A stretch of 58,304 bases of DNA from Fidelibacterota bacterium (lineage in GTDB: Bacteria > Fidelibacterota > UBA8477 > JABMPR01), in the NCBI GenBank assembly GCA_013202495.1, contig JABMQQ010000099.1, forward strand, positions 1 to 58,304, written 5' to 3'. The notes below the pieces were generated by a model, which had not been told where the DNA came from, ran no database searches, and was given only the letters and a program-made list of their open reading frames with translations. Shown here piece by piece: positions 16,042 to 49,457 of this stretch. The position numbers and the translations under genes were made by a program. Within the stretch, counting starts at the first letter, position 1; the number at the start of each line of letters is the position of its first letter.

Positions 16042-16210
16042 TTATATGTCTGTGTCGTGTAAGTAAGTAAGGGTCAGCATGTTACAGGATAGTGAAACAG
16101 TCGGTATCCCACCTGTATCCCGAGAAAAGATCTAGGGGTAATCATTGTCGAGGGGGCACTATCATTGATTACTTTATCCCGTTTGTAATAATATGATTGC
16201 ATTCAACTGA

Positions 16211-16681: not shown

Positions 16682-16683
16682 GA

Positions 16684-17160
16684 TCACCTCTCTAGATCAA
16701 ACTGCTCAAAATAATTATTTACGTACCCTTCTAATGTCAGTAAATCTCTGTATATGTCTCTAGTTGCAGTCTCAGAAAATGATTGGCTTGCTTTTTTACC
16801 AGAGAGTAACGTCATAACGGATTTCAATATATTTTTAGCTTCAGTTGAACAATCTCCAGGGATTCCATTTTTAATAAATACTAAATCAGGTTTGATTTTG
16901 CTAAATGTATCCTTTATCATATCCTTGTTGCTATTAAAATCATTTAGACATTCGATCACCGTAGATCGATTTGCTTCCAAGTTTCCCATAACGCCTGGCA
17001 TTTTCTCGTTTATCAATCTAAACTTCTTAACCTTTTTAACATGAAGGGCTATGTATATCGTAAGAAGAACTCCTGCAACTGAAGCGACATCACCAATATT
17101 GGAAATAATCCAAATGATTAGTGAGAAAAAAACATCAATTGCCCATATTAAATAATTCAA
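16684..17160 (-). CDS. Membrane-anchored protein of a two-gene unit
   Basis: The 158-residue protein has two N-terminal hydrophobic segments (about 3-20 and 24-42), followed by a basic patch (HVKKVKKFR) and a helical cytoplasmic part of about 110 residues. No catalytic motif is visible. Its stop is separated by 2 bases from the start of the soluble protein gene, so the two probably work together at the inner membrane. Location in an integrated island makes a defence or phage-conflict role possible, but nothing in the sequence proves it. Confidence 0.6.
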   Translation of the reverse strand: MNYLIWAIDVFFSLIIWIISNIGDVASVAGVLLTIYIALHVKKVKKFRLINEKMPGVMGNLEANRSTVIECLNDFNSNKDMIKDTFSKIKPDLVFIKNGIPGDCSTEAKNILKSVMTLLSGKKASQSFSETATRDIYRDLLTLEGYVNNYFEQFDLER

Positions 17161-17501
17161 ATTTAGAGGAATCCCTTAATCCTTTGTTTCTATAGGACTC
17201 AATATAGGTTCTTAAATTAATTTTGAAAGAATTGTCGCCTTGTATGTGTTACACTGCAGCACATGTGCAAACTGTTCAATACGATTTTTCCGGTTTTTAA
17301 TAGATTGGCAACTGATACCTGATTATTTGTCCGTTCTCTGGAAATTATTAAACAGCAACACTTTGGTGGTTATTGTAATATTTGGTATCCCTGTGGTATC
17401 CAGATAACAGCAATCAAGTTTTTTACCAGGTGTGAGAAAGTGTTGACCCATCTACTCAAATGCCTAAATTCCTGTACAAAACATTTAATAGGGAGGGGAC
17501 G
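17161..17501. other. Gene-free stretch between divergent genes
   Basis: The 340 bases separate the minus-strand gene pair from the plus-strand lipoprotein gene and should hold promoters for both. I see GGTATCCCTGTGGTATCC near 17391-17408, one of several GTATCC-rich repeats in the island (others near 16103, 20082 and 20440). No coding frame is supported. Confidence 0.4.
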
Positions 17502-17990
17502 ATGAGCAAATTCTTATTCGGATCCGTTGTTGCGGTATTGTTGACTGCTTGCATATCAGTTATTGAATTTATTCCAGAAGAGAATATGTATTTATTGATC
17601 GATTTTACGAAGCTAACAGAAAAGGGAATGCTTATTACTCCAGATGTCTATAAAGGAGACTACTTAGCGGTTGGCATGATTGACATGATCCAATATCCAA
17701 GAGCGTACATGGTTGAATTACGACCAAAGTATACTGAGGCAGAATTAGAGAAAACACCATGGATACCACCTCCCAAACCTAATAAACAATGGGTCGTGGA
17801 GAAGCCTGATCATGAACGGATCTTAGATAGCTTATATCAAATGATTACAGAAAAAGGGGGAGATGCAATCACAAGGATCGAAATCTCCTATCCTGAAAAA
17901 TCGTATAATAGTGGAACTGTTTCACCAATTGTTCTTACTGGGATAAGAATAAATGGGTTTGCGATAAAACGTCTGAAAGATGAAGAGTAG
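17502..17990 (+). CDS. Hypothetical lipoprotein
   Basis: The 162-residue protein starts MSKFLFGSVVAVLLTAC, with Cys17 in a clear lipobox. The frame is open from 17460, but GGGAGGGG at 17490-17497 ends 4 bases before the ATG at 17502 and the signal starts there. The mature part has a Pro-rich linker (TPWIPPPKPNK) and a C-terminal alpha/beta part (GGDAITRIEISY) that resembles the fold of small YbjQ/heavy-metal-binding-like lipoproteins; this is only a resemblance. It is followed by another exported protein gene. Confidence 0.65.
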   Translation: MSKFLFGSVVAVLLTACISVIEFIPEENMYLLIDFTKLTEKGMLITPDVYKGDYLAVGMIDMIQYPRAYMVELRPKYTEAELEKTPWIPPPKPNKQWVVEKPDHERILDSLYQMITEKGGDAITRIEISYPEKSYNSGTVSPIVLTGIRINGFAIKRLKDEE

Positions 17991-18066
17991 CCTAGCCTAG
18001 CTCAATCACGTTAAGGGCCATAGAATTTAATTAAGTTAGACAGAGTTAACAAAGGAGGGTATCTTA

Positions 18067-18630
18067 ATGATTTCAGGTCGATCCAAATCCTGCTACAAGT
18101 ACATGGTCCTGATACTACTTTTTACTTTTTTCAAAAGTGCAGGTTTCGCAGCGGAGTGTTTTAGGTTGCAATACGGTATTTCGAAGACTGAGGCGATATT
18201 TCAGTTAAAGAAGGATAACATATATGTTGACAACTCGGGCAATTATGTTTTAGCAACCTATAAATTAACCGATCCCGATAATTATTCACTATTCAATGAT
18301 AAAGGGGAAAAACATGTATTTGCTATGTATGTATTTTCGAAAAACGCAGAAAAATTAAATCGTTGTATTTTGTTCTCTATCATTTCGGAGACGCGTATGG
18401 CAAACAGGAAAATTCTTGAGGGGATGGTTTCCGTTTATATGAAATCCAGACCGATTGCTCAAGATAACAAAAATGGTTTAGATTTAAAAATTTGGGAGCG
18501 AGGTGATACCGTTGTTGACCTCTATGAACTTGCTGGAATGATATATGTTGATTTTAAATTGCTTTTTATAGATTATGATAAGAGTGCGCCAGAAATAATC
18601 ATGGAAAATTCAAGTTGGGTGGGGGGATGA
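18067..18630 (+). CDS. Hypothetical exported protein
   Basis: The protein has 187 residues. A basic N-terminus and the hydrophobic MVLILLFTFFKSAGFA form a signal peptide with a likely cut after GFAA. The mature part is mixed alpha/beta without a motif that I recognise. AAAGGAGGG at 18050-18058 is a strong RBS. GTTAGACAGAG at 18034 upstream resembles the right end of an attC site, so this gene may also be cassette cargo. Confidence 0.62.
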   Translation: MISGRSKSCYKYMVLILLFTFFKSAGFAAECFRLQYGISKTEAIFQLKKDNIYVDNSGNYVLATYKLTDPDNYSLFNDKGEKHVFAMYVFSKNAEKLNRCILFSIISETRMANRKILEGMVSVYMKSRPIAQDNKNGLDLKIWERGDTVVDLYELAGMIYVDFKLLFIDYDKSAPEIIMENSSWVGG

Positions 18631-18658
18631 GCCAAAAAAGATACGGAAAATTCACTAA

Positions 18659-18686
18659 GCGAGTCTGTTTTGATAAGCAGCTCAAG
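18659..18686 (+). repeat. Copy of the 28-base element at 196-223
   Basis: GCGAGTCTGTTT and AAGCAGCTCAAG are identical to the element at 196-223; only the middle four or five bases differ. The copies are 18 kb apart, and both sit in a junction just before a gene. It ties the tRNA-Lys island to the cassette-like array at the left of the window. Confidence 0.6.
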
Positions 18687-18726
18687 CCTGGCACGCAAGT
18701 ATGAAGTTAATAAAGGAACTAAAATT

Positions 18727-18846
18727 ATGGCATTAATTAATTGTTCAGAATGTGGAAAAGAGGTTTCTGATAAAGCCTCAGCTTGTCCGAATTGTGGAGC
18801 ACCAATTAGTGTGCATACCCCACCAAAGACATATTCCACCAATTGA
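18727..18846 (+). CDS. 39-residue zinc-ribbon protein
   Basis: The short frame reads MALINCSECGKEVSDK then ASACPNCGAPIS and stops at 18846. Four cysteines in two CxxC knuckles (6, 9, 20, 23) form a zinc ribbon. AAGGA at 18713-18717 lies 9 bases before the ATG. Such ribbons normally head longer proteins, so this may be an N-terminal fragment. The following sequence in another frame belongs to a different, 5'-truncated gene, so a deletion or frameshift probably joined the two. Confidence 0.6.
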   Translation: MALINCSECGKEVSDKASACPNCGAPISVHTPPKTYSTN

Positions 18847-19288
18847 CAGAAATAATCAAAACTTATTCAGGAAGGAAATTCTCGCAGCTGCAGAAGAGCA
18901 ATCCATAGGATTAATAACCTGTTTTGATCTGTTCCGTCTGGCACGTGGGATTATTGTAAATAACTGGCCTACATCTGCAGTGCAAGATGTACTCTATTCA
19001 GTTGGTCATATACCACCAGTTCCATCTCATTACCAGTTTGTTGGAACCATTGAAAAACACATAAGAGTTAACAATATTATCGGCTTTCAATTACAAACCG
19101 CTGAATTGGCAGTTGATGATAAAATTTCCTTCGACTTGGGTTTAGACTACCATGAAGAAGCAGTTGAATCTATAGAAATTGATAACAATCAGGTGAATCA
19201 TGCTAATGTTGGAGATTTTGTAGGAATAAAGACTACGTTGCCCAAACACCAGATTCAAAAAAGAGTTAGAGTGTATAAGGTCTTATAA
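18830..19288 (+). pseudogene. 5'-truncated gene: nuclease-like tail plus EF-Tu-domain-2-like module
   Basis: In this frame the first coherent residues are about 18830 onward. The part LFRKEILAAAEEQSIGLI with ITCFDLFRLARG resembles the last helices of restriction-endonuclease-like domains. The C-terminal 75 residues (FVGTIEKHI, then DKISFDLG and ANVGDFVGIKT) look like the beta-barrel domain 2 of EF-Tu. There is no proper start or RBS; the frame upstream overlaps the zinc-ribbon gene. I read it as the 3' remnant of a larger gene. The family links are by pattern only. Confidence 0.5.
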
Positions 19289-19300
19289 TCAGTAGCTAGA

Positions 19301-19345
19301 GCATAACAAACGTTTAGAATTGACGTTCAAAGATTTCTGAGTATA
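19301..19345 (+). repeat. attC/VCR-like junction
   Basis: GCATAACAAACGTTTAG then AATTGACGTTCAAAG follows the truncated gene directly. The opening resembles the left end of Vibrio-type cassette sites (TAACAAACG), and AACGT/ACGTT can pair. No right-hand GTTRRRY core is found before the next gene. The rest of the 225-base gap shows only G-rich sequence near 19385-19420. Confidence 0.35.
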
Positions 19346-19513
19346 AAAAACCCTCAGGTGTATCAGAGCTACATATTGAATACATGAAGGGGGCGTGCCC
19401 AAGGGGACTGGGGGGTAGGGGTTACAAAAACTCAAGTCATGGAAAGTATTGAGGAAGAGCTGTCTTAGACTAACTTCTCTAATAAAACAATCGATTGCCT
19501 GGAGGGGAGCATT

Positions 19514-19975
19514 ATGAAATCAATTTTAGCAGTTCTACTAATGGGTTTTGCTCTATTTGCGCAGGACGTAATTGTGACACCTACAAAATCGATTTCCGGT
19601 AAGGTAGTTGCAATCGATAGCTCCTATATTGCTCTGATTGTCAGCGGGAATGAGAATGTTTCTGTTGCTGTACACAAGAACCTCAAGAGCATAGTACTTG
19701 ATTCAACAGAGACAATTTTAGACAATGAAGGATTGACGGTTGGACCAGACCATAGGCTGTGGTCTAATGAAACAAGATTCCTTGCTGGGAAAAATTATCA
19801 CCCCTTGAAGAAAGAACTATCAGATACTCTCAAAACAAGTTTCGCTGGAGAACTGAGAAAACTGGATAATGATGACAGGCAAACCCTTGCGCTTGAGAGG
19901 ATAGCGCTGGTGTTAACAATTGAACTTGCTCTATCTATTGTGCTGATTGTGATTGCGCTAACTGCTACCCCCTGA
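19514..19975 (+). CDS. Hypothetical exported protein with C-terminal membrane helix
   Basis: The 153-residue protein has a signal peptide (MKSILAVLLMGFALFAQ). The part after it (ISGKVVAIDSSYIALIVSG) looks like a small beta-barrel of the type seen in exported FCB proteins. Residues about 130-150 are strongly hydrophobic (LVLTIELALSIVLIVIAL), so the C-terminus would be anchored in the membrane. GGAGGGGAG precedes the ATG at a normal distance. No family is recognised. Confidence 0.6.
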   Translation: MKSILAVLLMGFALFAQDVIVTPTKSISGKVVAIDSSYIALIVSGNENVSVAVHKNLKSIVLDSTETILDNEGLTVGPDHRLWSNETRFLAGKNYHPLKKELSDTLKTSFAGELRKLDNDDRQTLALERIALVLTIELALSIVLIVIALTATP

Positions 19976-20105
19976 GCAGGAACCACAAGTGGGTGAGCAA
20001 CTGATTCTACATCACCTGCCTAGTTAACGTTAATCGTTACTCAGTAAAGGATTGAAGGGTATTGAGATGTGGAGTATCCCACTAGTATCCCAATAAGTGT
20101 AGAAA

Positions 20106-35231: not shown

Positions 35232-35326
35232 CAGGGTATCCTCTGTAAATGAAAATATTTAATACTTGTCCAATATATATGGAGTGGTTGAGAGTTGAAC
35301 AATAAACTTGGTTTCAGAAAAGAAAA

Positions 35327-35357
35327 CCCCCTAGAAGACAGGGAATCTTCAAGGGGG
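35327..35357 (-). terminator. Strong stem-loop with T-rich tail
   Basis: CCCCCT-a-GAAGA pairs with TCTTC-a-AGGGGG around a seven-base loop. On the minus strand it is followed by TTTTCTTTT, so it should end a minus-strand transcript that begins in the AT-rich region. The only candidate gene upstream of it is the 35-codon frame at 35410-35517. Confidence 0.7.
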
Positions 35358-35409
35358 CAAGTCAGTGGAGATTATCCGATGCGATAAAATCTGACTAGTT
35401 TACAGGAAG

Positions 35410-36930: not shown

Positions 36931-37242
36931 ATGAGAACGAAAAACGAAACATACAGCAGCCAAACAACGAGAGAGAGAACCTCTGTCTCCCCAAAAACGG
37001 ATTGGCTGAAATCATCCGAGACCGCAATTGCCGGAACGAATGCTGAGAACAGCAATCTGGCTGGAGCTTGGAAAAATAGAAAAACTTCGGTTCAGAATCA
37101 CACTGACCAGATGATTAAATCCATTTTGAATGTGACAATTCTCACATCAAAAATGGGTGATAAATCAGCTCAAAGAGCTTCAGGACAAAATGAAATGGAG
37201 CGCAACCTGGTGGGTAATCAAATCGAGTTGAAGGAGAGAAAA
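36931..37242 (+). other. In-frame upstream extension of the first DUF11 gene
   Basis: The frame of the next gene is open without a stop from ATG 36931, which has its own RBS (AGGAAGAG). GC content rises abruptly at this ATG and the codons look coding. The 104 residues are hydrophilic, rich in Thr, Ser, Asn and Lys, with no motif. It could be a real N-terminal extension or a separate leader. A signal peptide then follows internally, which argues against simple fusion. Confidence 0.45.
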
Positions 37243-37737
37243 ATGAAAGATGTGTTAGGCAATATTACAAAATACGCAATATCTGCTATTATGTCTCTTT
37301 CGGTGGTTATGGGCCAGGGCATTCCAAAGTTGGATATCCATATTGACGATCAAAAAGTCAACCTGACTGCAGCTGAAATGAAAGATGCTTCCCTGGTTAA
37401 TTACATCCCTGGAGACACAATCCGTTATGTCATTACCGCCTCAAATGTTGGTGATGGCCTGATGAAGAATCCTGAGATAGTGGATCCTGTTCCTGCTGGG
37501 GTGACATATGTCCCGAACACTGCTAGGGGTGCGGATACTGAGATCACCTACTCGATGAATCAGGGCAACACCTACATGGCATGGCCTCCATTTTATACAG
37601 TGAGAAATTCAAAGGGCATTCTGGTTAAGCGAGAAGCAACACCAGAAATGATCACCCATATCAAGTGGAACATTTCCAAAAATCTTGATCCTGGTGATGT
37701 GTCATCCATGGAATTCCTCGTGGTGGTGGACAAATGA
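37243..37737 (+). CDS. Exported DUF11-type single-repeat protein
   Basis: From ATG 37243 (AAGGAGAG at 37231-37238) the 164-residue product starts with a signal peptide (MKDVLGNITKYAISAIMSLS to VMGQG). The mature part is one DUF11-type domain: GDTIRYVITASNVGDGLM, then IVDPVPAGVTYVPNTA and the closing LDPGDVSSMEFLVVV. Such Ig-like modules form surface stalks. A longer product from 36931 is possible. The stop overlaps an ATG (ATGA at 37734) of the next gene's frame, so it is coupled to the next surface-protein gene. Confidence 0.75.
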   Translation: MKDVLGNITKYAISAIMSLSVVMGQGIPKLDIHIDDQKVNLTAAEMKDASLVNYIPGDTIRYVITASNVGDGLMKNPEIVDPVPAGVTYVPNTARGADTEITYSMNQGNTYMAWPPFYTVRNSKGILVKREATPEMITHIKWNISKNLDPGDVSSMEFLVVVDK

Positions 37738-37823
37738 ATATCAAAACTTTATTGAACGATGATTCCAGCATGGAATCCCAAAATATGATACACAAACAGA
37801 AGCTAACAAAAGGAGGGTTTAAA

Positions 37824-39596
37824 ATGAAACCTACACGCTTCTTAATCGTCGCAATAGTCCTGATGGGACTTGTTGCTACAACCAGTGCTGCCATAACAGA
37901 GGCTGGCACTGTAATCGAGAACCAGGCATTTGGTAATTACAATGATGCCAATGGAAATGCTATGACTGAAGTCTTTTCAGCCGTGGTCCAAACAACAGTG
38001 AGTCAAGTAGCTGGTGTAACTCTAGGTGGAAACCTGGCTAACCCAGTATCAGCAATGGACTCAACCCTGTATGCTGTGACTTTGACCAATAGTGGTAATG
38101 GTAAAGACACCTACACCATTGGAGCTACAGAGTCAGCAACTACTGGTGCATTTGATTTCTTCGTCTACCACGATGCTGATGGTAGTGGAACTATCAATGG
38201 CACCGAAGGTGATACTGAAATTACACTCACAGATTCAGTAACGTTCGGTGGTTTTTACGATCTGCTGATTAAGGTTGTAGATGTCACAGTTGGTGGCGCT
38301 GATCCTGGTGAACAGCATGTTGTCACTTTGACAGCTACGACGACCTTTGGCACAGATTCGACTGCCTCAGTTACTCTGACATCTACCATCCAGGCTGCAA
38401 CGGTTGCAGGTACAACAGAGATTACTGGTAATCCCGATCCTGCTCCAGGTGAAGCGATTACATACGAATCCTGTTTCACGAATGAAGGTACTTCGATTGC
38501 CTACAATCCAGTGTATACAACCGTGATGCCTAGCAACACAACTCTGGACACCACATCCGTTCGTATCGATGGTGGTAGCCCGGTAACTGTGAACACAAAT
38601 GGAACAGGTCTATACCAATATGACATCCCATCGCGCACATTGACGATGAATTTGGATTCTCTTGGTTTTACAACTGGTGTTGATGATGGAGTCTGTATCA
38701 GCTTTAATGCTGTTGTAGATGATCCATCGGCTGCAGGACTACCCATTGATTTTCCTGCTAACAACCCAGAGCTCACCTATGAAAACGCAGGTGGAGATCC
38801 CTATCCAGGTACAACCCCATCGGAAGGTACAAGCTTCCCACCAGGTGGTGTTGAAGTTGATCAGACCTTTGGTGTCTCTCTCGTTGGTGTCAATGCTCCA
38901 TATAATTATACCGGCGATCCTGGAGATACCTTGATCTATGACTTTACCGTGACCAACGATGGTAACGGTGATGATACTTTCACACTCTCTGATACATCAA
39001 GTTTCGTGACATGGGTATTTTATTTAGACGGCGATAACGATGGTGTCCTCTCAGTTACTGAAAAATCAGTTGGTGGTGTTATCACCGTAACTGGAACACT
39101 AACTGCTAATCAAACGGTTTACTATATAGCAATTGGTACCATCCCAGTTGGAACAGCTGATGGCGCGACTGATGCAAGTATCCTCATCGCTGCAACCTCA
39201 GTTGGTGCTGCAACAACAACATCCTCAACTGGATCTGCCTCAGCAACCTGTACTGCTCCTATCCTTACACTGGTTAAGAGTGTTTCACCAACAGGTGCCC
39301 AGCCTCCAGGTACTGAGCTGACATATACGATTATCGTTGCAAATAGTGGTACTGGTGTGGCAACAACTGTTGCCGTGTCAGATGCCATTCCTGCTAACAC
39401 AACATATGTTGCAGAAAGTATGACTGTAGATGCTGCAGGTGACGATGATGACAATGTTGTCGATGGCATAGAGACCGTAGATAATGCTTCCAAGGAAGCA
39501 AGTTCTGTTCTTTTTGACTTTGACACAATTCCTGCTGTCACTGCTGGAGATGATACAGACATGCACACCCTGACTTTCAAGGTAACCATAGACTAA
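37824..39596 (+). CDS. Exported DUF11-repeat protein
   Basis: The 590-residue product begins with a signal peptide (MKPTRFLIVAIVLMGLVATT to SAA). An N-terminal segment of the type AGTVIENQAFGNYNDANGN is followed by about four Ig-like/DUF11 modules; the last shows LVKSVSPTGAQPPGTELTYT, then VSDAIPANTTYV. Thr, Gly, Asp and Val dominate, as in extracellular stalk proteins. The frame is open from the ATG at 37734, but AAAGGAGGG at 37809-37817 and the signal fix the start at 37824. There is no membrane anchor or sorting tail, so it may polymerise or attach to another member of the cluster. Confidence 0.8.
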   Translation: MKPTRFLIVAIVLMGLVATTSAAITEAGTVIENQAFGNYNDANGNAMTEVFSAVVQTTVSQVAGVTLGGNLANPVSAMDSTLYAVTLTNSGNGKDTYTIGATESATTGAFDFFVYHDADGSGTINGTEGDTEITLTDSVTFGGFYDLLIKVVDVTVGGADPGEQHVVTLTATTTFGTDSTASVTLTSTIQAATVAGTTEITGNPDPAPGEAITYESCFTNEGTSIAYNPVYTTVMPSNTTLDTTSVRIDGGSPVTVNTNGTGLYQYDIPSRTLTMNLDSLGFTTGVDDGVCISFNAVVDDPSAAGLPIDFPANNPELTYENAGGDPYPGTTPSEGTSFPPGGVEVDQTFGVSLVGVNAPYNYTGDPGDTLIYDFTVTNDGNGDDTFTLSDTSSFVTWVFYLDGDNDGVLSVTEKSVGGVITVTGTLTANQTVYYIAIGTIPVGTADGATDASILIAATSVGAATTTSSTGSASATCTAPILTLVKSVSPTGAQPPGTELTYTIIVANSGTGVATTVAVSDAIPANTTYVAESMTVDAAGDDDDNVVDGIETVDNASKEASSVLFDFDTIPAVTAGDDTDMHTLTFKVTID

Positions 39597-39659
39597 GGTT
39601 ATCGAAGGTTAGCTAGTGATTATTAGGTTCAAAACCCTCCACACGAATTCCGTGAGCGG

Positions 39660-42600
39660 ATGATGAGACGATTACTCGCCTTAATCTCCCTCATGGGAGC
39701 CGTGGTTTTTGGTCAGGTTCCAGTTGGTACCGAGATCATAAATGTTGCCCAATCATCCCATCAGGATGGCAGTGGAACAACATTTGTGGGTTCTTCAAAT
39801 GAGGTCATCACGATCGTATCTGAAGGGTATCAACTGGCAATCTCCAAAACCGCTAGTGCAGCTGTTGTTGCACCAGGCGAGAGTTTGACCTATACAATCA
39901 CTGTTACAAATACGGGAAATATTTCCCCTGCACCATTTACCATCACAGACACACTGAGCTCCGGTCTTGATATTACATCAAGCACCCCTGAAGCCAGTGT
40001 ATCAAATCAAGTAGCAGTTTGGAACGTCGCCAGCATTGCTGGAGGCCAAACATTGGTATTTGAACTTGAAGTTCTGGTAGATGAGAACCTGTTGGCCGAT
40101 GAGGTTATATCGAATACAGCCTGGTTGGCCGTTTCTGATGGTTTTCTTCTAGCTAGTGAATCAGCTGATGTAAACATCGGTGCACATTCAGATCTATTGA
40201 TTACAAAAATGGTAGCTGAAGATGTATCCGCTATTGGAGATACAGTTCACTATAGCATTAATGTATACAATACTGGCAATATCCCATCAACTGAAACCGT
40301 CATCAATGATGTATTACCAGAGCATGTATCATTCGTAAGTGCATCCCATTCGGGTGTAATTGTGGATAGTACTGTGTCCTGGAATGTTGGTGAAATGATG
40401 TCGGGAGACTCTGTAAATGTCTCCCTCGACGTTATTGTTGATGCGACTATGCCAGCCAATGCAGACTTAACCAACCATGCATCAGTTGAGAACGCAGAGG
40501 GAGTTTCTAAAGAAGCTTCAGTTCATTCATTTGCAAATCCCTGGATTCAGACCATTAGTAAATGGGCTGCTGATCAGGAATATGCGTTTGGTGATACGGT
40601 AGAGTTTACGATTACTATCGATAATACTTCACCGGATCCTGTGCATGCCATCTCAGTGCATGATACACTACCAGAACCTCTGGAGTTTGTATCTGCATCT
40701 AATGGTGGCTCCTTTGAAAACGGCGCGGTTGACTGGACGCTTGGAACTCTGAATGCCGGAAATGTTATTACCCTGAATGTCGTTACAACAGTCGGATCCT
40801 TACTTGAGGCCCGACCCGAAATCACAAACAGAGCTTGGATTTCTACAGCCAATGCTGGAACCAGCTGGGGTGACCATGTTGTGTCGCTGGCAGCCTTCCC
40901 AGAATTGGTATTAGAGAAGCGATCATCTGCAACTGTCCAGGCAGGGGATTCACTGGTTTACACATTTATAATGCGTAATACTGGAAACTCAATGGCTCAT
41001 GACGTAGCCTTGATTGATACCCTACCCGCACATGTTTCCTTTGGCTCTACTTCTGGTGATTTTACTTATGATGAAGCTTCTCATAGCATTCTTTGGAATG
41101 TGAACGAGATTGCCTCAAGTGCCACTGACTCACTTGTTATGGTCACTTATGTTGACTATCCAGTTGTCGATGGTACTACGCTCGAAAACACTGCACATCT
41201 ATCTTGTGTTGAAGGAAGTGTGTCTCAATCTACATCTATCACTGAAATTCTCTCAGCTCCAGGATTGTTTCTGGATATGAGTGGAACCAGTACTGTAGTG
41301 GCAGGCGACACCCTTCAACTCAGACTTGATTATCGCAATTTGGGAACCGAGACAGCCACCGGTGTTGTTCTTACTGATACACTGGGAACTGATCTGGAAT
41401 ATCTCAATGCTTCACGTGAACACACTTACGATCCTGAAACTGGAATTATTACCTGGAATCTAGATGACCTGACTCCTGGTGATAATGGTGTCATAGACAT
41501 TACAGCCAAGGTTCCAGATGATTTTAGTGGAACTGCTGTAATTCCTGTTGGTGGTCTCCTTAGCTGTGATCAAGGTGCACAAAGTGTTGATATACACGTG
41601 GTAATTGTACGTGCTCCAATAATGGACATTGTACTCGTAGGTGATACCTCACTCATTGAAGCAGGTGAATTTATCACATATGATCTCTCTTTTGAGAATT
41701 ATGGTGATACGACAGCAGTTAACGTTGTCGTTGTAGACTCACTCCCTGCCGATGTAGACTTCCTGGGCGCCTCCAATGATGGTGTCTATGATTCTACCAG
41801 TCACTCTGTGACCTGGTATGTCGGTGATCTTGATCCAGTTGAACCTGCAGGCGTGGCTAAGAAATTTAGCGCTGCTTCTTCAAATGAATCAAGTCTTCTA
41901 GCTACAAGAAGTGAACCTGCAAACGAGTTTACCATTGATGTGAGAGTTATCTACCCACTACCCAATGGTATGGAATTACCGAACACTGCCTACATCTATG
42001 TAGACGGGGTATTACAAGCTACAGCTACCTGGTTAGCCATCGTACAGGCTGCTCCTGAATTTGTATTTACTAAAACAGCAGATTTAGAAGTCTTTCCTGG
42101 CGATACCATCAATTATCAAATCGATGTGGCCAACTGGGGAACCGATCATGCAAGCGGAGTCAGCATTCTGGATACACTCGATTCTCGAGTCACCTTCCTG
42201 GGTGCAACAGGAGACTATATCTATGATGTAGCCTCACATTCACTCCAATGGTTTATCGGACCGCTGAATGTTGAGCAAGCTGAAAGCTTCGAGATCACAA
42301 CAACTGTAGATGATATGTTGGGTCATGGTGAACAAGTTGGAAATCGCGCTTGGCTGGTTTCAAATGAATCAGACGCTATTCCCGCTGTGGCACTTACAAC
42401 CAACATACTTCCGCTCAGTATTGTTGTCGATGCACAGCCTAGAACAATTCTTGGAAATGGTGCCGCTACATCAACGTTGTCAGCTCATGTTTATTCCTTC
42501 CTGGGCAATCCTGTTCCAGACGGTGTAGACGTGAACTTCTATACTGACTTAGGAACAATTCCTGACTCAGTTGCAATCACTTCAACTGTTGATGGTGTGG

Positions 42601-45600
42601 CTTACAGTACATTGGTTGCTGATACAGTTACCTTTGAATCTGTTACGGCTACTCCTTATGGGAGAGCCATATTTGCACCAACCCAATGGGCTGATGACAC
42701 GACTCAAGTCACCTTCATCATCGGTGCCTTCGATGGAGCTATCTATAATTACGAAGGTCTTCCACAAGAAGATGTGAGAGTCGAATTACGATGTGTCGAT
42801 ACTGGTGCCTATGCAGGGCATGACAGCACCGATGCAAACGGGTATTACCTCATTCCTATCTATAAAGACGATCTTTATCAGATTATCTATACACTGATCG
42901 GGGATAATGGTGTTCCTTATGAGACAGTACAGGAAATTGAGATTAATACGCCAAGTGAAGGTAGCTTGGTCACCAATCTCAACTCTGTATCTGGATTTCT
43001 CTATGACGAGATTACAAACGAGATCATTGCCGAAGATAGTATCCTCGTTATCGTGAATGGTGAAGTCATTGATTCTACCAGTACGCTTCCAAAGACCTCT
43101 GATCATCATATGACTGATTCGACATACACGGATTCTACAGGTAAGTACTTCTTTACCAACCTCTTACCAGGTACCTATAGTCTGACAGTTGTTTACAATG
43201 GAATCAGTTCCTATAGTGATGGTGGTCTTGATGTGAATCTCACCACCCCAGGTCTGTATGTTGTAAATGCCAATGTTACTTTAAGAAGTTCACCCTTCTA
43301 TATTCTTAAAACGGTGGACAAACTTGAAGCAGCAGTTGGTGATACATTGCATTACAGGTTGGACTTTGGTACACAGGATATCACGTTCATCGATTCTGTA
43401 TTTGTAACTGATTACCTACCAAACGGACTTGAGCTCATTGCGAACACAGTCGTAACTGATGCGAACACGAGTTACGATGGTCTAGACCTCATTACCAATG
43501 AGATGAGCTTCAGTAGAAGCGATATCCAACTCGGGGACTCACTCCACATCGATTTCGATGCGAAGATCACAATTGATGCTGGTCTTGGATGGATTGAGAA
43601 TAAGGCGCTAGTCGCAAGTACGATCGATAGTACCTGGAGTGACAGAAATATAAATTCCAGAGCGAAGACGAAGATTATCTTCCCCTTCCTTAAAGTCACC
43701 AAACAGAGTAATCGTCGTGTTATTGAAATCGGCGATGTAGTTACGTATACTGTCAAAATGACCAATACCAGTGCAGATGACATTATTCATGATTTTGTGG
43801 TTGAAGATGTGCTGCCTTATGGTTTTAAATTCCGCAAGAATACCAGTTACCTGAATGGTTCAAAAATTGGTGATCCCAATCTCCAGGAAGCCGTCGGCAA
43901 ACGTCTGGCAATGACCTGGACAATTGGTGATACCTTACAACCAGGTGATACCTTCACGATGAAATACCGCATCATTGCTGGTATGAACAGCCGCGAAGGA
44001 ACCAACACAAATGAAGTTATGGCCAGGGCACACACCCTGCTTGGCTTCCCCGTGATTTCCAATCTTGCAACCGCCGATGTTGTTGTCAAACCTGGTCTGT
44101 TTAGCGATCGTGGTCTTATCATCGGTAAGGTCTATTATGACACCAACGCCAACGGAATTCATGATGAGAATGAAGAGACAGTGAAAGATGTCGAGCTCAT
44201 TATGGAAAATGGTGCTAGAATCATCACAGACGAATACGGAAAATACAGTGTTCCCGATGTTGAAGCTGGTATGCATGTCATCCGTGTCAACGAGCGTACA
44301 CTCCCAGCCCTGAGCGAGATTATCCTCGATTCTCCAGATTATCTTGGTGATACTCAGAGTAAAATGGTGCGTGTCGCTGCAGCAAGTATAGCCAAATCGA
44401 ATTTCGCCCTACGTGAAATTTCAGTACCCGGTAAACTTACTGGTACCGCCTTCTATGATGTGAATCGCAATGGTATTTTTGATCCAGATGAAGAAGTCCA
44501 ATCTGACCTCGTCATGGTCTTGAATGATTCAAAAGCCACCATGACCGATAGTCTTGGTAGATTCACCTTTAAGAAAGCAGCCCTGGGTGATTTGACCCTG
44601 CGTGTTGATGATAGCAGCCTGCCTTCATATGGTAGACTGTTCTCTATTGATTCGACTGTTGATTCTCTTGGATTGGCTGCAAATAGGTGGAATGCAACAC
44701 TCTATTCAGGCGATAGCATTAACATCAACATTCCATTAGAAAAACTGGAACTTTTCAGTGTCCTTAGCAAAGAGTCAACTCTGGAAATGAAAACAGAGAT
44801 GCTCACAGAAGAATTTAGACTCCTCGTGTACAAACCATGGAGCCTTCTGGTTAGAATCGGTTTTGTTTCTGGCTCAGCAACACTGCAGAGTGAAATTTTT
44901 AATGAACTCAGGAATATTGGCGATTTAATGAAATGGCAGACCCAGATCAATTTAGATATCAAGGGTCATACTGATCATCTCCCGGTTGCTCCTGGAAGTG
45001 GCTTTAGAGATAATCAGGAGCTTTCTGAATCCAGAGCATTAGCGATCAGAACTTACCTTGTTCAAACCATGGGTATCAGCGAATCACGTATCACTGCTGT
45101 GGGTATGGGTGCTTCCGAGCCTATGCAAGATGGCAATACTCCAGAAGGTCGCTCCCTGAATCGTCGCGTAGAAATGGTCTTCTTTAATGCTGCTGAAGAA
45201 GATTCTAAATTCAACCAACTCGAGTTCATGTATGATATCAATTACACAGGTGAAATACCTATTCGCAGCGTACGTTTCCACCAGGAATTACCTCCAGGAT
45301 TTATCTATAAGCCTGGTACTGCTATCCTTGATTCAACGCTTCTGGATCCCATTGTCAATTCTGAAGAGCGCGATATCTGGAGCTTCGGAGATTGGGATGC
45401 TAAGAAACATACAGAATTTGATGTAGCCATGAAGCCAGATGATTATGAATTAGTTCAGAATACTGGTGTGGTTGCTGCTCACCTTGAACTCATTGATGAA
45501 GATGGAAACCTGATTGTAACAGATACGCTTGAAACTCGCATTTCAACCCTGGTTGAAACGCTATCATTCAACATGATCCTCGAGGGTACACAGTTTGATG

Positions 45601-46346
45601 TTGGTTCTGCAGACCTCAAGCCTTCCGCCGAACCAAGTCTTCGTAAACTGGGTGACTTCCTCTCCTGGCAGCCGGATATTGAGATTGTTATTGAGGGTTT
45701 CACTGATGATCGTGGTAGCCTGGAATTCAATATGCTGCTATCTGACTGGAGAGCAATCAGTGTTAAGAACTTCCTGATTGAGAATTATAATTTGAATCCT
45801 GAGAATATTCATACTCATGGATTAGGTCCACATTATCCTATAGGCGACAACGAAACCTGGATTGGCCGTGCAACCAACCGTAGAGTTGAAGTATTGGTGA
45901 ATGCTGAACTTGGTGAAGCTGCCCTTCTGGAACTTGATGTAATTAAAGAATCACTGCTGCAGAAGATTGTTATTCCAGTGAATGCATTTGAAAGCATGTC
46001 ACCTGATTCTGCCCTGAGTATTCCAGCCAACCAATCATCAACATTGTTGCTGAACATGAGCTACCCAGCCTACGCCACTGCTGACTCCATTGCTATTACA
46101 CTAGCGCTTCCAACAGATTTAGAGTATGTTGATGTTGCAGGTACCTTCAAAACATGGGGTCAAACACTTGAAGCTGGTGGCCTGGAAGTTGTCTCGCCAA
46201 TTCAGATTAATGCTCCTGAAGGGGTCGTGGGCGTACGTGAACTCTTTATGAATGTTCAACTGTTTAATGAAGGACAAGCACTGTCCAGCCATATTGAGAA
46301 AGTGTTGAGAGTAAATTTACAAGAATCGGAATCTGGCAATGAATAG
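39660..46346 (+). CDS. Giant DUF11/SdrD-B repeat protein with two OmpA-like domains
   Basis: The 2228-residue protein has a signal peptide (MMRRLLALISLMGAVVFGQ). Seven DUF11 repeats begin near residues 61, 180, 299, 418, 537, 656 and 801 (pattern G.TV.Y.I.V.NTG, then DTLP). An invasin-like Ig domain is near 921, carboxypeptidase-regulatory-like modules near 1024 and 1109, two more DUF11 near 1217 and 1344, and two SdrD-B-like modules near 1484 and 1591 (YYDTNANGIHDENEE, FYDVNRNGIFDPDEE). Two OmpA-like domains are near 1734-1842 (IKGHTDHL, LNRRVEM) and 1971-2082 (IEGFTDDRGS, TNRRVEV), separated by a further Ig-like part. OmpA domains should hold peptidoglycan while the repeats reach outwards. 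The stop overlaps the next start by 8 bases. Confidence 0.88.
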   Translation: MMRRLLALISLMGAVVFGQVPVGTEIINVAQSSHQDGSGTTFVGSSNEVITIVSEGYQLAISKTASAAVVAPGESLTYTITVTNTGNISPAPFTITDTLSSGLDITSSTPEASVSNQVAVWNVASIAGGQTLVFELEVLVDENLLADEVISNTAWLAVSDGFLLASESADVNIGAHSDLLITKMVAEDVSAIGDTVHYSINVYNTGNIPSTETVINDVLPEHVSFVSASHSGVIVDSTVSWNVGEMMSGDSVNVSLDVIVDATMPANADLTNHASVENAEGVSKEASVHSFANPWIQTISKWAADQEYAFGDTVEFTITIDNTSPDPVHAISVHDTLPEPLEFVSASNGGSFENGAVDWTLGTLNAGNVITLNVVTTVGSLLEARPEITNRAWISTANAGTSWGDHVVSLAAFPELVLEKRSSATVQAGDSLVYTFIMRNTGNSMAHDVALIDTLPAHVSFGSTSGDFTYDEASHSILWNVNEIASSATDSLVMVTYVDYPVVDGTTLENTAHLSCVEGSVSQSTSITEILSAPGLFLDMSGTSTVVAGDTLQLRLDYRNLGTETATGVVLTDTLGTDLEYLNASREHTYDPETGIITWNLDDLTPGDNGVIDITAKVPDDFSGTAVIPVGGLLSCDQGAQSVDIHVVIVRAPIMDIVLVGDTSLIEAGEFITYDLSFENYGDTTAVNVVVVDSLPADVDFLGASNDGVYDSTSHSVTWYVGDLDPVEPAGVAKKFSAASSNESSLLATRSEPANEFTIDVRVIYPLPNGMELPNTAYIYVDGVLQATATWLAIVQAAPEFVFTKTADLEVFPGDTINYQIDVANWGTDHASGVSILDTLDSRVTFLGATGDYIYDVASHSLQWFIGPLNVEQAESFEITTTVDDMLGHGEQVGNRAWLVSNESDAIPAVALTTNILPLSIVVDAQPRTILGNGAATSTLSAHVYSFLGNPVPDGVDVNFYTDLGTIPDSVAITSTVDGVAYSTLVADTVTFESVTATPYGRAIFAPTQWADDTTQVTFIIGAFDGAIYNYEGLPQEDVRVELRCVDTGAYAGHDSTDANGYYLIPIYKDDLYQIIYTLIGDNGVPYETVQEIEINTPSEGSLVTNLNSVSGFLYDEITNEIIAEDSILVIVNGEVIDSTSTLPKTSDHHMTDSTYTDSTGKYFFTNLLPGTYSLTVVYNGISSYSDGGLDVNLTTPGLYVVNANVTLRSSPFYILKTVDKLEAAVGDTLHYRLDFGTQDITFIDSVFVTDYLPNGLELIANTVVTDANTSYDGLDLITNEMSFSRSDIQLGDSLHIDFDAKITIDAGLGWIENKALVASTIDSTWSDRNINSRAKTKIIFPFLKVTKQSNRRVIEIGDVVTYTVKMTNTSADDIIHDFVVEDVLPYGFKFRKNTSYLNGSKIGDPNLQEAVGKRLAMTWTIGDTLQPGDTFTMKYRIIAGMNSREGTNTNEVMARAHTLLGFPVISNLATADVVVKPGLFSDRGLIIGKVYYDTNANGIHDENEETVKDVELIMENGARIITDEYGKYSVPDVEAGMHVIRVNERTLPALSEIILDSPDYLGDTQSKMVRVAAASIAKSNFALREISVPGKLTGTAFYDVNRNGIFDPDEEVQSDLVMVLNDSKATMTDSLGRFTFKKAALGDLTLRVDDSSLPSYGRLFSIDSTVDSLGLAANRWNATLYSGDSININIPLEKLELFSVLSKESTLEMKTEMLTEEFRLLVYKPWSLLVRIGFVSGSATLQSEIFNELRNIGDLMKWQTQINLDIKGHTDHLPVAPGSGFRDNQELSESRALAIRTYLVQTMGISESRITAVGMGASEPMQDGNTPEGRSLNRRVEMVFFNAAEEDSKFNQLEFMYDINYTGEIPIRSVRFHQELPPGFIYKPGTAILDSTLLDPIVNSEERDIWSFGDWDAKKHTEFDVAMKPDDYELVQNTGVVAAHLELIDEDGNLIVTDTLETRISTLVETLSFNMILEGTQFDVGSADLKPSAEPSLRKLGDFLSWQPDIEIVIEGFTDDRGSLEFNMLLSDWRAISVKNFLIENYNLNPENIHTHGLGPHYPIGDNETWIGRATNRRVEVLVNAELGEAALLELDVIKESLLQKIVIPVNAFESMSPDSALSIPANQSSTLLLNMSYPAYATADSIAITLALPTDLEYVDVAGTFKTWGQTLEAGGLEVVSPIQINAPEGVVGVRELFMNVQLFNEGQALSSHIEKVLRVNLQESESGNE

Positions 46347-47067
46347 ACTGTTTTCAATACTGGCTGGTCTACTTCTATCTACGACACTTTTTGCTCAGAT
46401 ACTTATGCTGGAGCCAAAAGATAATGCAGTGAGTAAGCTGAATAATATTTCAGTTACAGTTGCTGGAAAAGCTGGTTCACCAGCCAAATTATTTGTTAAT
46501 GATGTTGAAGTAGCCAGTGAGATCATAAGAATTGATGGATTACTGGATTTTCTTAGTGTTCGAGTTCCTGCAGGTCCAGTCACGCTGAAAGTGGAAGCAG
46601 TAGGTGTTGGAGATAAAATCTTTTCTGCTGAAAAGAAGATTCATGTCCTCGGTCCAGTGGGTCAAATAAAAAGTGCATCAGGGGATATCATCCTTCCCGC
46701 TGATGGTAGAAGCATTGGTAAATACAAATTTGAGTTATTTGATGAATGGGGCTATCAACTACATGACGTGAAAGTTGTGACCCTGAAATTGTCCTCAGGT
46801 ACATTGATTAATAAAGATTATGATGAGCATAGCACAGGACACCAGGCAGAAGGAGTCGAAGGCTCTATCTCGTTAAGAATTCAATCGGGGAATGAACCTA
46901 CCGAGCGTTCAACTCTGGATATTCAAGCTGCTGGATATAGCCAGCAATTCAATGTCAGCTATACGATTCCTGAAGAACCTTTACTCCTGGTTGGTGCCAC
47001 CAGTGGTAGTCTCTCTACCCTGGGGAAAGGTGGGATCCAAATGACTTACCGCATTTTGGCATCATAA
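46339..47067 (+). CDS. N-terminal part of a frameshifted outer-membrane protein
   Basis: The 242 codons give a signal peptide (MNRLFSILAGLLLSTTLFAQ), an Ig-like domain (about 25-105) and a second beta domain up to about 230, then run into a stop after GKGGIQMTYRILAS. The following gene continues the protein in the -1 frame. One extra G in the GGG at 47032-47034 would join the two into one product of about 1039 residues reading GKGG-DPNDLPHFGIINRNS. The ATG overlaps the end of the giant protein gene, so the two are coupled and probably form a surface complex. Confidence 0.75.
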   Translation: MNRLFSILAGLLLSTTLFAQILMLEPKDNAVSKLNNISVTVAGKAGSPAKLFVNDVEVASEIIRIDGLLDFLSVRVPAGPVTLKVEAVGVGDKIFSAEKKIHVLGPVGQIKSASGDIILPADGRSIGKYKFELFDEWGYQLHDVKVVTLKLSSGTLINKDYDEHSTGHQAEGVEGSISLRIQSGNEPTERSTLDIQAAGYSQQFNVSYTIPEEPLLLVGATSGSLSTLGKGGIQMTYRILAS

Positions 47068-47084
47068 ACAGAAATAGCGCCCAA

Positions 47085-49457
47085 TTGGGTGACCGTGTGC
47101 TACTGGGCGGACGTACTGCCTTCTATGCCAAGGGAAGTATTAAACCCGGTCTACGCTTGACTGCCTCTCTGGATACAGATAGAGGCTATCTCGATCAACT
47201 CTTTGTTGATGTTGATCCCCAAGAACAATACCCCTTATTTGGTGATGCGAGTACCATCACCTTTGATGCACAGTCCAGATCAAAATTATTTGCTAAACTT
47301 GAACAAAATGAATCCTTTGTGCTGCTTGGTGATTTTAACACCAAGATGACCGACAATGAATTCACCGCCTATAACCGTACCTTTAATGGATTGCTTGGTT
47401 CTTATCTTTATAAGAATCATGAAATTCAAGTTTTTACTACTGCCACGGATAGATCCATGGAGCAGGAAGAAATTAGGGGTGAGGGAATTAGTGGTTTCTA
47501 CTATCTGAACAATGGTAGCGTAACTCGTTTCTCCGAAAAAATACGAATCGTTACTAAAGACAGATATCATCCTGAGACCGTACTGGAAACCAAAAACCTC
47601 ACCCGCTTTTTTGATTATGAAATCAACTATGTTGATGGAACCTTAATGTTCAAACAACCTATTGCCTCTCTGGATGGCGCTGGGAACCCAATTTTCATTG
47701 TGGTATCCTACGAATTTCAAGGCTCAAATTCCCGATCCTGGATTGGTGGATTTCGCCATCGGAGTAGTTTAGGTCCCGGTGAAAAAATCAACGTGGGTAC
47801 CACATTTCTCACCGAACAACGCGCCACTGCCAACTATATGCTATATGGTATTGATGCCAACGTGCCTGTAAATGATAAGATTACCCTTTCAGCAGAAATT
47901 GGTCAATCCCGCAATCCACATGATTTTGTAGATAGTGTGACCGTCGGAAGTGCAATCAAAACGGCAGTCCAGGTTGATGATGTGTATCCGGGATTAAATC
48001 TAAAGGGCTACATTCGCGCAGTGGGGGATGACTTTGTGAATGCTTCACAGGTAGGAGGTAGAACCGAACGTGGTTCATTCAAATATGGTTTGAATGCAAA
48101 ATATGATTCCAAAAAGTACGGCAAAATTACTTCTGAGTATTATGATCAGAATGGTTCAATAGGTACGAACAATACTCACGAGAGTCGTGTATTTAATATG
48201 CATGTAGAGCGTCGCGTCAAAGAAAATTCCACCCTTAAGTTCGGGTATGAAAATTCACTCAGGGAGAAATTTGATGCCTCAGATAGTCTGTTAAGCAAAG
48301 ACTTCTCCAATCTTCTAAAAGCCCAGTACGATGTCTTGCTGCTGGAACACATCAAGGCAGTATTTGAGCATGAACAGAATTTGAGCTTCAACAATAGAAC
48401 TAAACCTACCAATAGCAGTGTTGGGCTCGTTTATCCAATTACAGAACAACTCGAGGTCTATTGGAAATACCGCTTTATTCAGGGCACAGGCGTCAATCGC
48501 CAGAGCGTCCTGGGCTTCAGGTCCGTACTGGGTGAGAACACTGATATCGAGGGTAAATATGAGATCGGTGGAATTACCGGAGATCAACGCAATCGAGCCA
48601 CACTGGGATTGAAGAATAAATGGTATGTACGTGAGGACCTGGTTGTGAATGTTTCCCTTGAAAATACAGCTACTGTAGATTCATTTGAGATTCCAACTCC
48701 CAGTCATCAGGCCATGGCGCTTTCATTTGAATATCTCCCCGAGATGCCCTGGAAAGCTATTGGTAAGTATGAGATCAGAGATGATGCCAATAGCCTTCAA
48801 CGTGTAATTACTCTTGGTGGTGATATGCGCATCTTTGCTGGTTTTGGTGCCATAGCAAAATTAGATCACTGGGAAAATAGATATAAGATTGGCAATATGG
48901 GCTCCCAAACCCGTGAAAACTACCAGGCTGGTTTGGCATTTAGACCACAGGACTCGGATCAGATCAACGCCCTTGCGAAGCTGGCGTACGTTTCTGATCG
49001 TAATAGTCAGATCGCCACTCCAATACGACAGGACCGCTACATTTTCTCAGTACATTCATACTGGCAAATTAATAAGCAAATTGGTTTAGCTTCCCGCTTT
49101 GCCACCAGGTATGTACTTGATGATGATGCTGCTTTTGATGAAAGTCTCAGCACTCAAACCTATTTCTTTCAGTCAAGAGCAGAGTATGCCTATACAAATG
49201 AACTGAGCGGTATTCTTGATGCACGCTTTATATATATGGCTCCAACAAGTGAGAGCGATATGGCTCCAACAAGTGAGAGCGCCTTTGGTCTCGCTGCAGA
49301 AGTCGATTATCTGGTTTATCAAAACATTCAACTCGGTGTGGGGTACATCTTGAAAAATTATTCAGATGCTGATTTTAGCTTCCTGGATTACCAGTACCAT
49401 AACCTGTATTTTGCGCTCCACGCCAAATTCTCTGAGGACATTTTTAACTGGCGTTAA
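47085..49457 (+). CDS. Beta-barrel part of a frameshifted outer-membrane protein
   Basis: The 790-residue frame starts at a TTG with no RBS and has no signal peptide, though the frame is open further upstream into the end of the previous gene. The early part (LGGRTAFYAKGSIKPGLRLT, then DPQEQYPLFGDAS) is the plug-like start seen in DUF11-linked outer-membrane proteins. The rest consists of alternating amphipathic strands with aromatic girdles, and ends KFSEDIFNWR, fitting a large beta-barrel. It would be inactive without the N-terminal part, so either the frameshift is a sequence error or the gene is broken. A 24-base tandem duplication is at 49236-49283. Confidence 0.75.
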   Translation: MGDRVLLGGRTAFYAKGSIKPGLRLTASLDTDRGYLDQLFVDVDPQEQYPLFGDASTITFDAQSRSKLFAKLEQNESFVLLGDFNTKMTDNEFTAYNRTFNGLLGSYLYKNHEIQVFTTATDRSMEQEEIRGEGISGFYYLNNGSVTRFSEKIRIVTKDRYHPETVLETKNLTRFFDYEINYVDGTLMFKQPIASLDGAGNPIFIVVSYEFQGSNSRSWIGGFRHRSSLGPGEKINVGTTFLTEQRATANYMLYGIDANVPVNDKITLSAEIGQSRNPHDFVDSVTVGSAIKTAVQVDDVYPGLNLKGYIRAVGDDFVNASQVGGRTERGSFKYGLNAKYDSKKYGKITSEYYDQNGSIGTNNTHESRVFNMHVERRVKENSTLKFGYENSLREKFDASDSLLSKDFSNLLKAQYDVLLLEHIKAVFEHEQNLSFNNRTKPTNSSVGLVYPITEQLEVYWKYRFIQGTGVNRQSVLGFRSVLGENTDIEGKYEIGGITGDQRNRATLGLKNKWYVREDLVVNVSLENTATVDSFEIPTPSHQAMALSFEYLPEMPWKAIGKYEIRDDANSLQRVITLGGDMRIFAGFGAIAKLDHWENRYKIGNMGSQTRENYQAGLAFRPQDSDQINALAKLAYVSDRNSQIATPIRQDRYIFSVHSYWQINKQIGLASRFATRYVLDDDAAFDESLSTQTYFFQSRAEYAYTNELSGILDARFIYMAPTSESDMAPTSESAFGLAAEVDYLVYQNIQLGVGYILKNYSDADFSFLDYQYHNLYFALHAKFSEDIFNWR
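49236..49283 (+). repeat. 24-base tandem duplication in the barrel gene
   Basis: The unit encoding MAPTSESD occurs twice in a row, the second copy ending in A. The duplication keeps the frame and would lengthen one loop of the barrel by eight residues. It is probably a recent slippage event. Confidence 0.85.

Follow-up and report, generated by a model that had tools for sequence, protein, structure and literature searches.

A conserved gene cassette of an uncultured marine bacterium that may build a surface fibre by donor-strand complementation of split DUF11 domains

INTRODUCTION

What could a small, a medium and a giant DUF11 protein build together when they are encoded next to an outer-membrane barrel? 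This question is raised by a stretch of 58,304 nucleotides (the window; contig JABMQQ010000099.1, assembly GCA_013202495.1) from a Fidelibacterota bacterium, which is part of a metagenome-assembled genome (MAG) of 3.95 Mb in 255 contigs. In agreement with the outline given by an earlier reading of the letters alone (the sequence-only reading), co-directional plus-strand genes encode a protein with one DUF11 match (P0001), a DUF11 protein of 590 residues (P0002), a giant of 2228 residues with nine DUF11 stretches, an SdrD_B region and two OmpA domains (P0003), and an immunoglobulin (Ig)-like part followed by a barrel, which in the window occupies two frames, P0004 and P0005 (Table 1). Based on sequence comparisons we propose, with a probability of roughly 0.6, that this cassette makes a surface fibre whose subunits are joined through split DUF11 (CLIPPER) domains, by donor-strand complementation. 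In P0001 and P0002 the C-terminal DUF11 domain would lack strand G, its last, and serve as acceptor; in P0002 and P0003 an orphan strand G would follow the signal peptide and serve as donor.

RESULTS

Truncated C-terminal domains and putative orphan strands at N-termini

On profile evidence, the last DUF11 domains of three families stop just before strand G, the strand that bears the Asn: P0001 (15 sequences), P0002 (15) and a further family, gene 5 (5), which stands at the cassette in 5 of 14 loci (L063, L064, L069, L073 and L074). With a probability of 98-99%, hhalign matches their C-terminal profiles to the 128-column DUF11 profile as far as columns 89-90, which is also where the sequences themselves finish. 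The P0002 acceptor family profile corresponds to columns 2-89, and a strand-F pattern is common to all 36 C-ends, including one distant protein.

A candidate for the missing strand is found at the N-termini of P0002 and P0003, which carry GTxIxNxA and in many cases also SNxVxTxV. The motif [ILV]xNxA occurs in 17/17 P0003 sequences (20 were available, and three were left out whose frame lacks the N-end), in 14/15 P0002, in 0/5 gene 5 and in 2/15 P0001 sequences, where both hits lie upstream of the likely start; shuffling gives an expectation of 0.05-0.16 per sequence. Aligned to DUF11, the donor sets share one register, with P0002 (15) at columns 94-102, P0003 (17) at 95-110 and a set from other phyla (9) at 94-109, and the Asn falls on the isopeptide column in all three alignments. 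The pooled donor score of 20.6 was reached by none of 120 column shuffles (maximum 11.0), and for the P0002 and P0003 sets taken singly the real score was reached in 0/60 shuffles each. In an earlier pooled run with looser parsing, one of 60 shuffles scored 129.2, which was taken for a parsing fault and left untraced; the stricter parsing was used for the 120 shuffles. These weak but consistent profile matches suggest that the N-ends of P0002 and P0003 carry an orphan strand G.

Residues of the isopeptide triad at the proposed joints

In the DUF11 crystal structure 9IFR, a Lys-Asp-Asn triad makes an isopeptide bond (PMC12617251, in the part considered here). Among DUF11 repeats of the giants with both ends aligned, Lys, Asp and Asn occupy the triad columns in 104/107; in the nine repeats of the window's P0003 the Lys aligns in 7/9 and the full triad in 6/9, repeats five and six (41289-41837) being without Lys. 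In the split domains the acceptors have Lys with Asp (P0002) or Lys with Glu (5/5, gene 5), and the donor Asn is present in 17/17 P0003 and 14/15 P0002 sequences. Judged by eye, Lys and Asp are likewise present in the acceptors of shaft type from Pacificitalea, Novosphingobium and Acinetobacter. Since donors bear Asn and shaft acceptors bear Lys and Asp, each joint could become a Lys-Asn bond. Covalent joints between subunits are a tentative proposal, to which we would give somewhat less than even odds.

The cassette is conserved as a unit

A search with P0005 gave matches in 27 of 100 genomes, including the window's own, and 27 loci from the 26 others (one genome has two). In all 14 assessable loci the small DUF11 gene is followed by the medium one, the giant and the barrel, in this order; the other 13 are cut short by contig ends. 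No independent scattering of the genes was seen, which bears out the earlier proposal of a single system. The 14 loci represent two families (f1 and f6) with two genera in all, and most orthologs belong to one genus; in a third family (f2) loci show giant and barrel in order, or the barrel by itself. The flanking genes for glucose-6-phosphate isomerase (PGI), DUF72, M28 and ApbE proteins are wholly or partly kept in most loci of the window's genus, and were not found at L059, L060, L064 and L065 of the same genus or at L066-L075 beyond it. As the order is kept while the flanks vary, the cassette, and not the neighbourhood, is the unit.

Moreover, a barrel profile of 16 rows matched 36 of 175 genomes searched. 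Of these, 23 gave strong family hits, among them two cut by contig ends and that of the window's genome, which is in two pieces; in the remaining 13 genomes short stretches of other large proteins matched, and the one checked is SprA. The P0002 profile (threshold E 1e-15) matched 18 of 175 genomes, every one of which also gave a strong barrel hit, again in agreement with a single system, with counts that are not independent of phylogeny. In the five barrel genomes without a P0002 match (G004, G012, G016, G020 and G022) the contig stops in or near the giant.

Compared with the same six relatives, identity is 44-70% for P0002, 75-93% for P0003 and 80-95% for the barrel part, and P0002 is the lowest among the gene parts compared in every one of the six pairs. 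No computed ratio of nonsynonymous to synonymous substitution rates (dN/dS) exceeds 0.34, hence P0002 shows fast change and not proof of positive selection. This fast change bears on a periplasmic scaffold, in which the DUF11 chain stays inside the periplasm and ties the barrel to peptidoglycan, with nothing exposed. OmpA domains of known proteins are periplasmic, and the Ig domains of the barrel protein may be so too. Against such a scaffold, P0002 changes fastest, as is often the case in exposed proteins (with dN/dS < 0.34), the giants of Sulfitobacter and Loktanella (about 6,200 and 6,080 residues by annotated length) would far exceed the periplasm if extended, and DUF11 arrays are isolated surface filaments in Litorilinea (PMC13319060, in the part considered here). 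We regard the scaffold as improbable.

Related cassettes in other phyla

With an intact barrel as query, tblastn against plasmids gave 25 records, and in all 15 loci opened (Proteobacteria and Cyanobacteria) the barrel gene adjoins, or is fused to, a DUF11/SdrD_B-type protein as recognized by annotation, Pfam or our own hidden Markov model (HMM). The SdrD_B region with the preceding DUF11 is also the part of P0003 that BLAST matches in proteins of other phyla. Five of the loci are multi-chain, namely those of Acinetobacter haemolyticus (where the shaft region is several short frames), Synechococcus sp. NIES-970, Kovacikia, Novosphingobium (with a broken barrel frame) and Pacificitalea, and there the donor motif is present in 5/5 bases, 4/4 readable shafts and 0/5 caps. 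In Acinetobacter and Pacificitalea a single chain contains both base and barrel, and the OmpA domain is placed in the giant in the window, in a separate gene in Acinetobacter, and in the barrel protein in Eleftheria and, under the cut-off, in Synechococcus. Such moves of OmpA, and the fusion of base to barrel, are an argument for a joint function of the donor base, OmpA and the barrel. We tentatively suggest, as possible but short of probable, a Gram-negative fibre class in Neomarinimicrobiota, Proteobacteria and Cyanobacteria, with polymerisation through split DUF11 domains, spontaneous inter-subunit Lys-Asn locks, a base that is either fused to a barrel of a dedicated family or tied to it, and an acceptor-only cap.

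The occurrence of similar cassettes in proteobacterial and cyanobacterial relatives also speaks against the idea that these proteins are substrates of the type IX secretion system (T9SS) which merely adjoin a barrel. In favour of that idea, SprA and no fewer than 150 Por_Secre_tail matches are present in the genome, but no T9SS tail was found in P0001, P0002, P0004, P0005 or the last 146 residues of P0003, and we consider it very improbable.

Weighing the fibre against an adhesin and against non-covalent joints

Several observations weigh against the proposed fibre. Row-by-row hmmalign puts 23/36 C-ends at columns 87-88, with 12 at 58-77 and one at 100 (which we read as partial or wrong alignments), and when 18 further acceptors were aligned singly, 10 reached the C-end at columns 87-90 and eight were partial. 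The donor profiles are short and weak, with hhalign probabilities of 9-31%, low absolute scores that are expected from at most 17 columns; on the window's own copies a strand-G HMM gave 4.8 bits for P0002 (shuffle p 0.005) and 0.4 bits for P0003 (p 0.17). One P0002 (L064) has Ala in place of the donor Asn. Lys38 of P0001 stands 18 residues before PGD, compared with about 10 for the DUF11 isopeptide Lys, which makes its standing as counterpart of that Lys uncertain. Outside the phylum, five caps each lack either Lys or Asp (by eye), and candidate tips of 3,034-3,056 residues in three relatives, together with a fragment in the window's genome, lack the Lys, which a fourth relative keeps. A Pfam scan of the cassette detected no PapD-type chaperone. 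Finally, giants that form a single chain and have the same barrel do without split domains; the donor motif is absent from 4/5 of those with a complete N-end, and the fifth, of Nitratireductor, hits it in a different setting.

The single-chain giants fit an ordinary OmpA-anchored fibrillar adhesin with a CLIPPER stalk, in which P0003 would be monomeric, P0001 and P0002 would be separate secreted proteins, and the short ends and the motif would be unpaired family signatures. Such an OmpA-anchored architecture is known in Acinetobacter silvestris (PMC12617251). However, it leaves unexplained why three families end at the same strand and two others begin with a segment resembling the missing one, and why the same division of ends recurs in other phyla; Pfam found no adhesive domain in the giant. 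We think this explanation unlikely.

The tips and caps without Lys or Asp favour a second alternative, in which strand complementation is non-covalent and the Lys, Asp and Asn of the split domains help packing only. To our knowledge, donor-strand fibres elsewhere have no need of such a bond. On the other side, Lys and Asp are kept in 15/15 and the donor Asn in 14/15 sequences of P0002, a protein whose identity to the window's version is no more than 41-70% in close relatives. This alternative is a sub-case of the fibre, and its odds overlap with those of the fibre itself; it seems to us somewhat unlikely.

Proposed assembly

In our model, the subunits would exit the cytoplasm by Sec. As P0001 has no donor, it would be the outermost cap; P0002, having both ends, could polymerise as a shaft, with shafts added through strand G; and P0003, a donor only, would be the base and end of the chain, held at peptidoglycan through its two OmpA domains and, in the outer membrane, by the barrel protein, which would be an anchor or exit pore. 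The joints would possibly be locked by inter-subunit Lys-Asn bonds, as the internal repeats should form within their own chain, and the gene order would be the chain order. From the sequences we infer strand insertion, bond formation, the order of assembly, the surface location and the role of the barrel as anchor or exit pore. Minor and major parts of one fibre had been suggested from size alone; the acceptor and donor end profiles support this and give it a concrete assembly logic. That P0003 is fixed to peptidoglycan would fit its two OmpA domains.

Possible tips would be the gene 5 proteins and proteins of about 3,050 residues, one of which (L141, 3,056 residues) has a GEVED domain. The C-terminal piece of such a protein of about 3,050 residues, with a truncated DUF11 end, lies on contig C88 of the window's own genome (L076, 354-1520), and the protein is found in many genomes of the genus; it is likely a fibre tip encoded elsewhere. 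The cap gene at L065 is preceded by a gene for yet another, different long protein (16146-20000), which has a truncated DUF11 C-end like that of gene 5 and is possibly a tip too. In the MAGs of two distant relatives the giant gene lies in two frames (L066 7081-9968 and L070 1-3009); their kin have one.

The barrel gene and its break

A single barrel gene had been described from the sequence, and this holds for the relatives: the gene is undivided (1,031-1,067 residues) in 23 of 27 loci, the other four ending at contig edges. In the window it falls into two frames of 242 and 790 residues, the second in the -1 frame, and the copy departs from the barrel frame somewhere in about 47015-47060. Programmed frameshifting at a G/A run near 47022 was rejected, because the barrel gene of the relatives is one frame. 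Against the closest relative, dN/dS is 0.12 and 0.05 for the two pieces, which means either constraint until very recently or a break that is an assembly error. None of the seven relatives compared has the 8-residue tandem duplication (MAPTSESD-MAPTSES) seen near the C-end of P0005. Taken with the broken frame, this duplication suggests that the gene is degrading or that the assembly is at fault.

The protein is taken to be a barrel on indirect sequence evidence. Pfam gave no match in P0004 or P0005, relatives have weak Pfam hits to porin families and annotations as 'TonB-dependent receptor', and many relatives outside the phylum have a C-terminal Phe. An AlphaFold2 (AF2) model of the barrel from an alignment with 12 relatives reached a predicted local distance difference test (pLDDT) score of 35.4, compared with 51-88 for the Ig part of an intact relative, and against solved structures the barrel profile matched through the Ig part alone (E 0.007-0.012). 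The earlier view of the barrel as gate or anchor fits the natural base-barrel fusions; the fold model stays at a pLDDT of 35. Kinship with SprA was rejected: a 78-column stretch aligned to one SprA with a probability of 61%. A second large barrel-like family exists in the phylum (L102 and L104, 1,119 and 1,207 residues); it has about 170 columns in common with the cassette barrel and no Pfam family above the cut-off.

Gene models and surroundings in the window

The frame of P0001 is open from 36886, and a Shine-Dalgarno sequence (GAAGGAGAG) and a signal peptide accompany ATG 37243, which most likely is the start and gives 164 residues; six relatives have 160-177 residues and two others, among the more distant ones, are longer. 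P0001 has a Pfam DUF11 match just under the cut-off, and an NCBIfam DUF11 match too. For P0002, AAAGGAGG (Shine-Dalgarno) precedes ATG 37824, most likely the start. Hence ATG 37734, which overlaps the stop of P0001, is not a start, and the translational coupling that had been read from this overlap falls away. The overlap at 46339 between the P0003 stop and the P0004 start, by contrast, is real and spans 8 bp.

The AF2 model of P0002 (pLDDT 78) has about four Ig-like domains, as counted from its strand pattern, and Foldseek places it with long Ig-like chains (for instance axonemal proteins and integrins) plus an RTX adhesin. The proposed size steps of one, about four and about nine repeats therefore hold for DUF11 at one and nine, whereas the middle step is one of Ig-like domains in a model. 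OmpA in P0003 forms two stretches, with 125 bits for the whole protein; P0003 also has a carboxypeptidase-regulatory domain and scores above the cut-off for TIGR04226 ('isopeptide-forming'). No match at E 1 was found by phmmer with the P0003 DUF11 array against solved structures.

Table 1. Coordinates of the cassette genes and of their proposed parts in the window
Feature	Position	Strand	Description
P0001, proposed cap	37243..37737	+	Signal peptide and one DUF11-type domain ending at strand F; without donor segment
Lys38 of P0001	37354..37356	+	Invariant, 15/15 orthologs
P0002, proposed shaft subunit	37824..39596	+	590 residues; putative donor segment at N-terminus, Ig-like domains in tandem, C-terminal DUF11 truncated
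Putative donor segment of P0002	37902..38009	+	Residues 27-62, carries Asn33
Putative acceptor domain of P0002	39276..39593	+	Lys485 (39276-39278) via Asp520 (39381-39383) to C-end; both residues 15/15 orthologs
P0003, proposed base/anchor	39660..46346	+	2228 residues; putative donor at N-end, followed by nine DUF11 stretches, SdrD_B and two OmpA domains
Putative donor segment of P0003	39723..39824	+	Residues 22-55, carries Asn28
Nine DUF11 stretches of P0003	39828..43988	+	Other domains in between
SdrD_B region of P0003	44127..44411	+	Pfam
OmpA domain 1 of P0003	44862..45164	+	Pfam
OmpA domain 2 of P0003	45591..45899	+	Pfam
P0004	46339..47067	+	242 residues; signal peptide and Ig-like N-terminal part of barrel protein; early frame end here
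P0005	47085..49457	+	790 residues; remainder of barrel protein, -1 frame

The cassette is flanked by the PGI gene (minus strand) on one side and by DUF72 and M28 genes on the other. About 2 kb ahead of P0001 (35232-37242) have 35% GC (43% in the window), are mostly without long frames, are partly alignable in close relatives, and are possibly a leader or regulatory region. Upstream of the minus-strand PGI gene, 85 bp (35318-35402) have 82% identity in L057, a terminator-like hairpin and no Rfam match; an Rfam scan at the gathering threshold found no family other than tRNA. Promoter-like sites occur at chance level (36 found, 37.4 expected) and terminator-like sites above it (17 and 9.9). Elsewhere in the window there are two Por_Secre_tail C-terminal domains, at 2285-2530 and 12431-12673.

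DISCUSSION

DUF11 isopeptide domains, donor-strand fibres with a proposed isopeptide link, and DUF11 surface filaments are each already known, and the published systems are compared here on the parts of their descriptions that were considered. The CLIPPER adhesin B9T28_05395 of Acinetobacter silvestris (PDB 9IFR; PMC12617251) has in common with the cassette the DUF11 repeats, the Lys-Asp-Asn triad, a tandem stalk and an OmpA anchor. There the bond lies inside one domain of one chain, whereas in the window the terminal domains look split between chains. The window's cassette, moreover, co-encodes a barrel and several subunits, and the word 'barrel' is absent from the main text of PMC12617251. 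The adhesin also contains a GEVED-like domain (PMC12617251), which among the proteins studied here is on the separate L141 protein.

The archaeal thread of Saci_0406 (PMC9715654) shares head-to-tail donor-strand complementation, a proposed inter-subunit isopeptide bond and a partner without an acceptor site. It differs in being archaeal and in that Asn57 is bonded to the N-terminal Asp24 two subunits on; 'DUF11' does not occur in PMC9715654. Chaperone-usher pili likewise have an incomplete Ig fold filled by the N-terminal strand of the next subunit, and an outer-membrane barrel (PMC9715654), but P0001-P0009 gave no Pfam match to a PapD-type chaperone or an usher, and the proposed covalent lock and the base with OmpA domains are different. 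GhpA of Aureispira and GhlA of Litorilinea, known as grappling hooks (PMC13319060), are surface filaments too, with 49 DUF11 domains in GhlA; they are single giant chains (5,898 and 6,596 residues) that bundle, and no split subunits are described in the part of that paper considered. A single paper, which deals with endospore appendages, was found to mention both DUF11 and donor strand; in it DUF11 is part of an anchor protein. We found no description of split-DUF11 assembly or of the cassette barrel in the open-licence literature, a weak negative since most subscription papers and bioRxiv preprints lie outside that scope.

If true, the proposed fibre would account for the joint working of many Gram-negative DUF11 genes and would assign a role to a barrel family that has no match to Pfam in the window; a covalent donor-strand fibre would join the known pili. 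Acceptor/donor pairs could serve as natural ligation tags, and the inter-subunit locks would be a natural counterpart of split-protein ligation. It would also give a reason for the persistence of isopeptide residues in DUF11 domains that have no partner residue.

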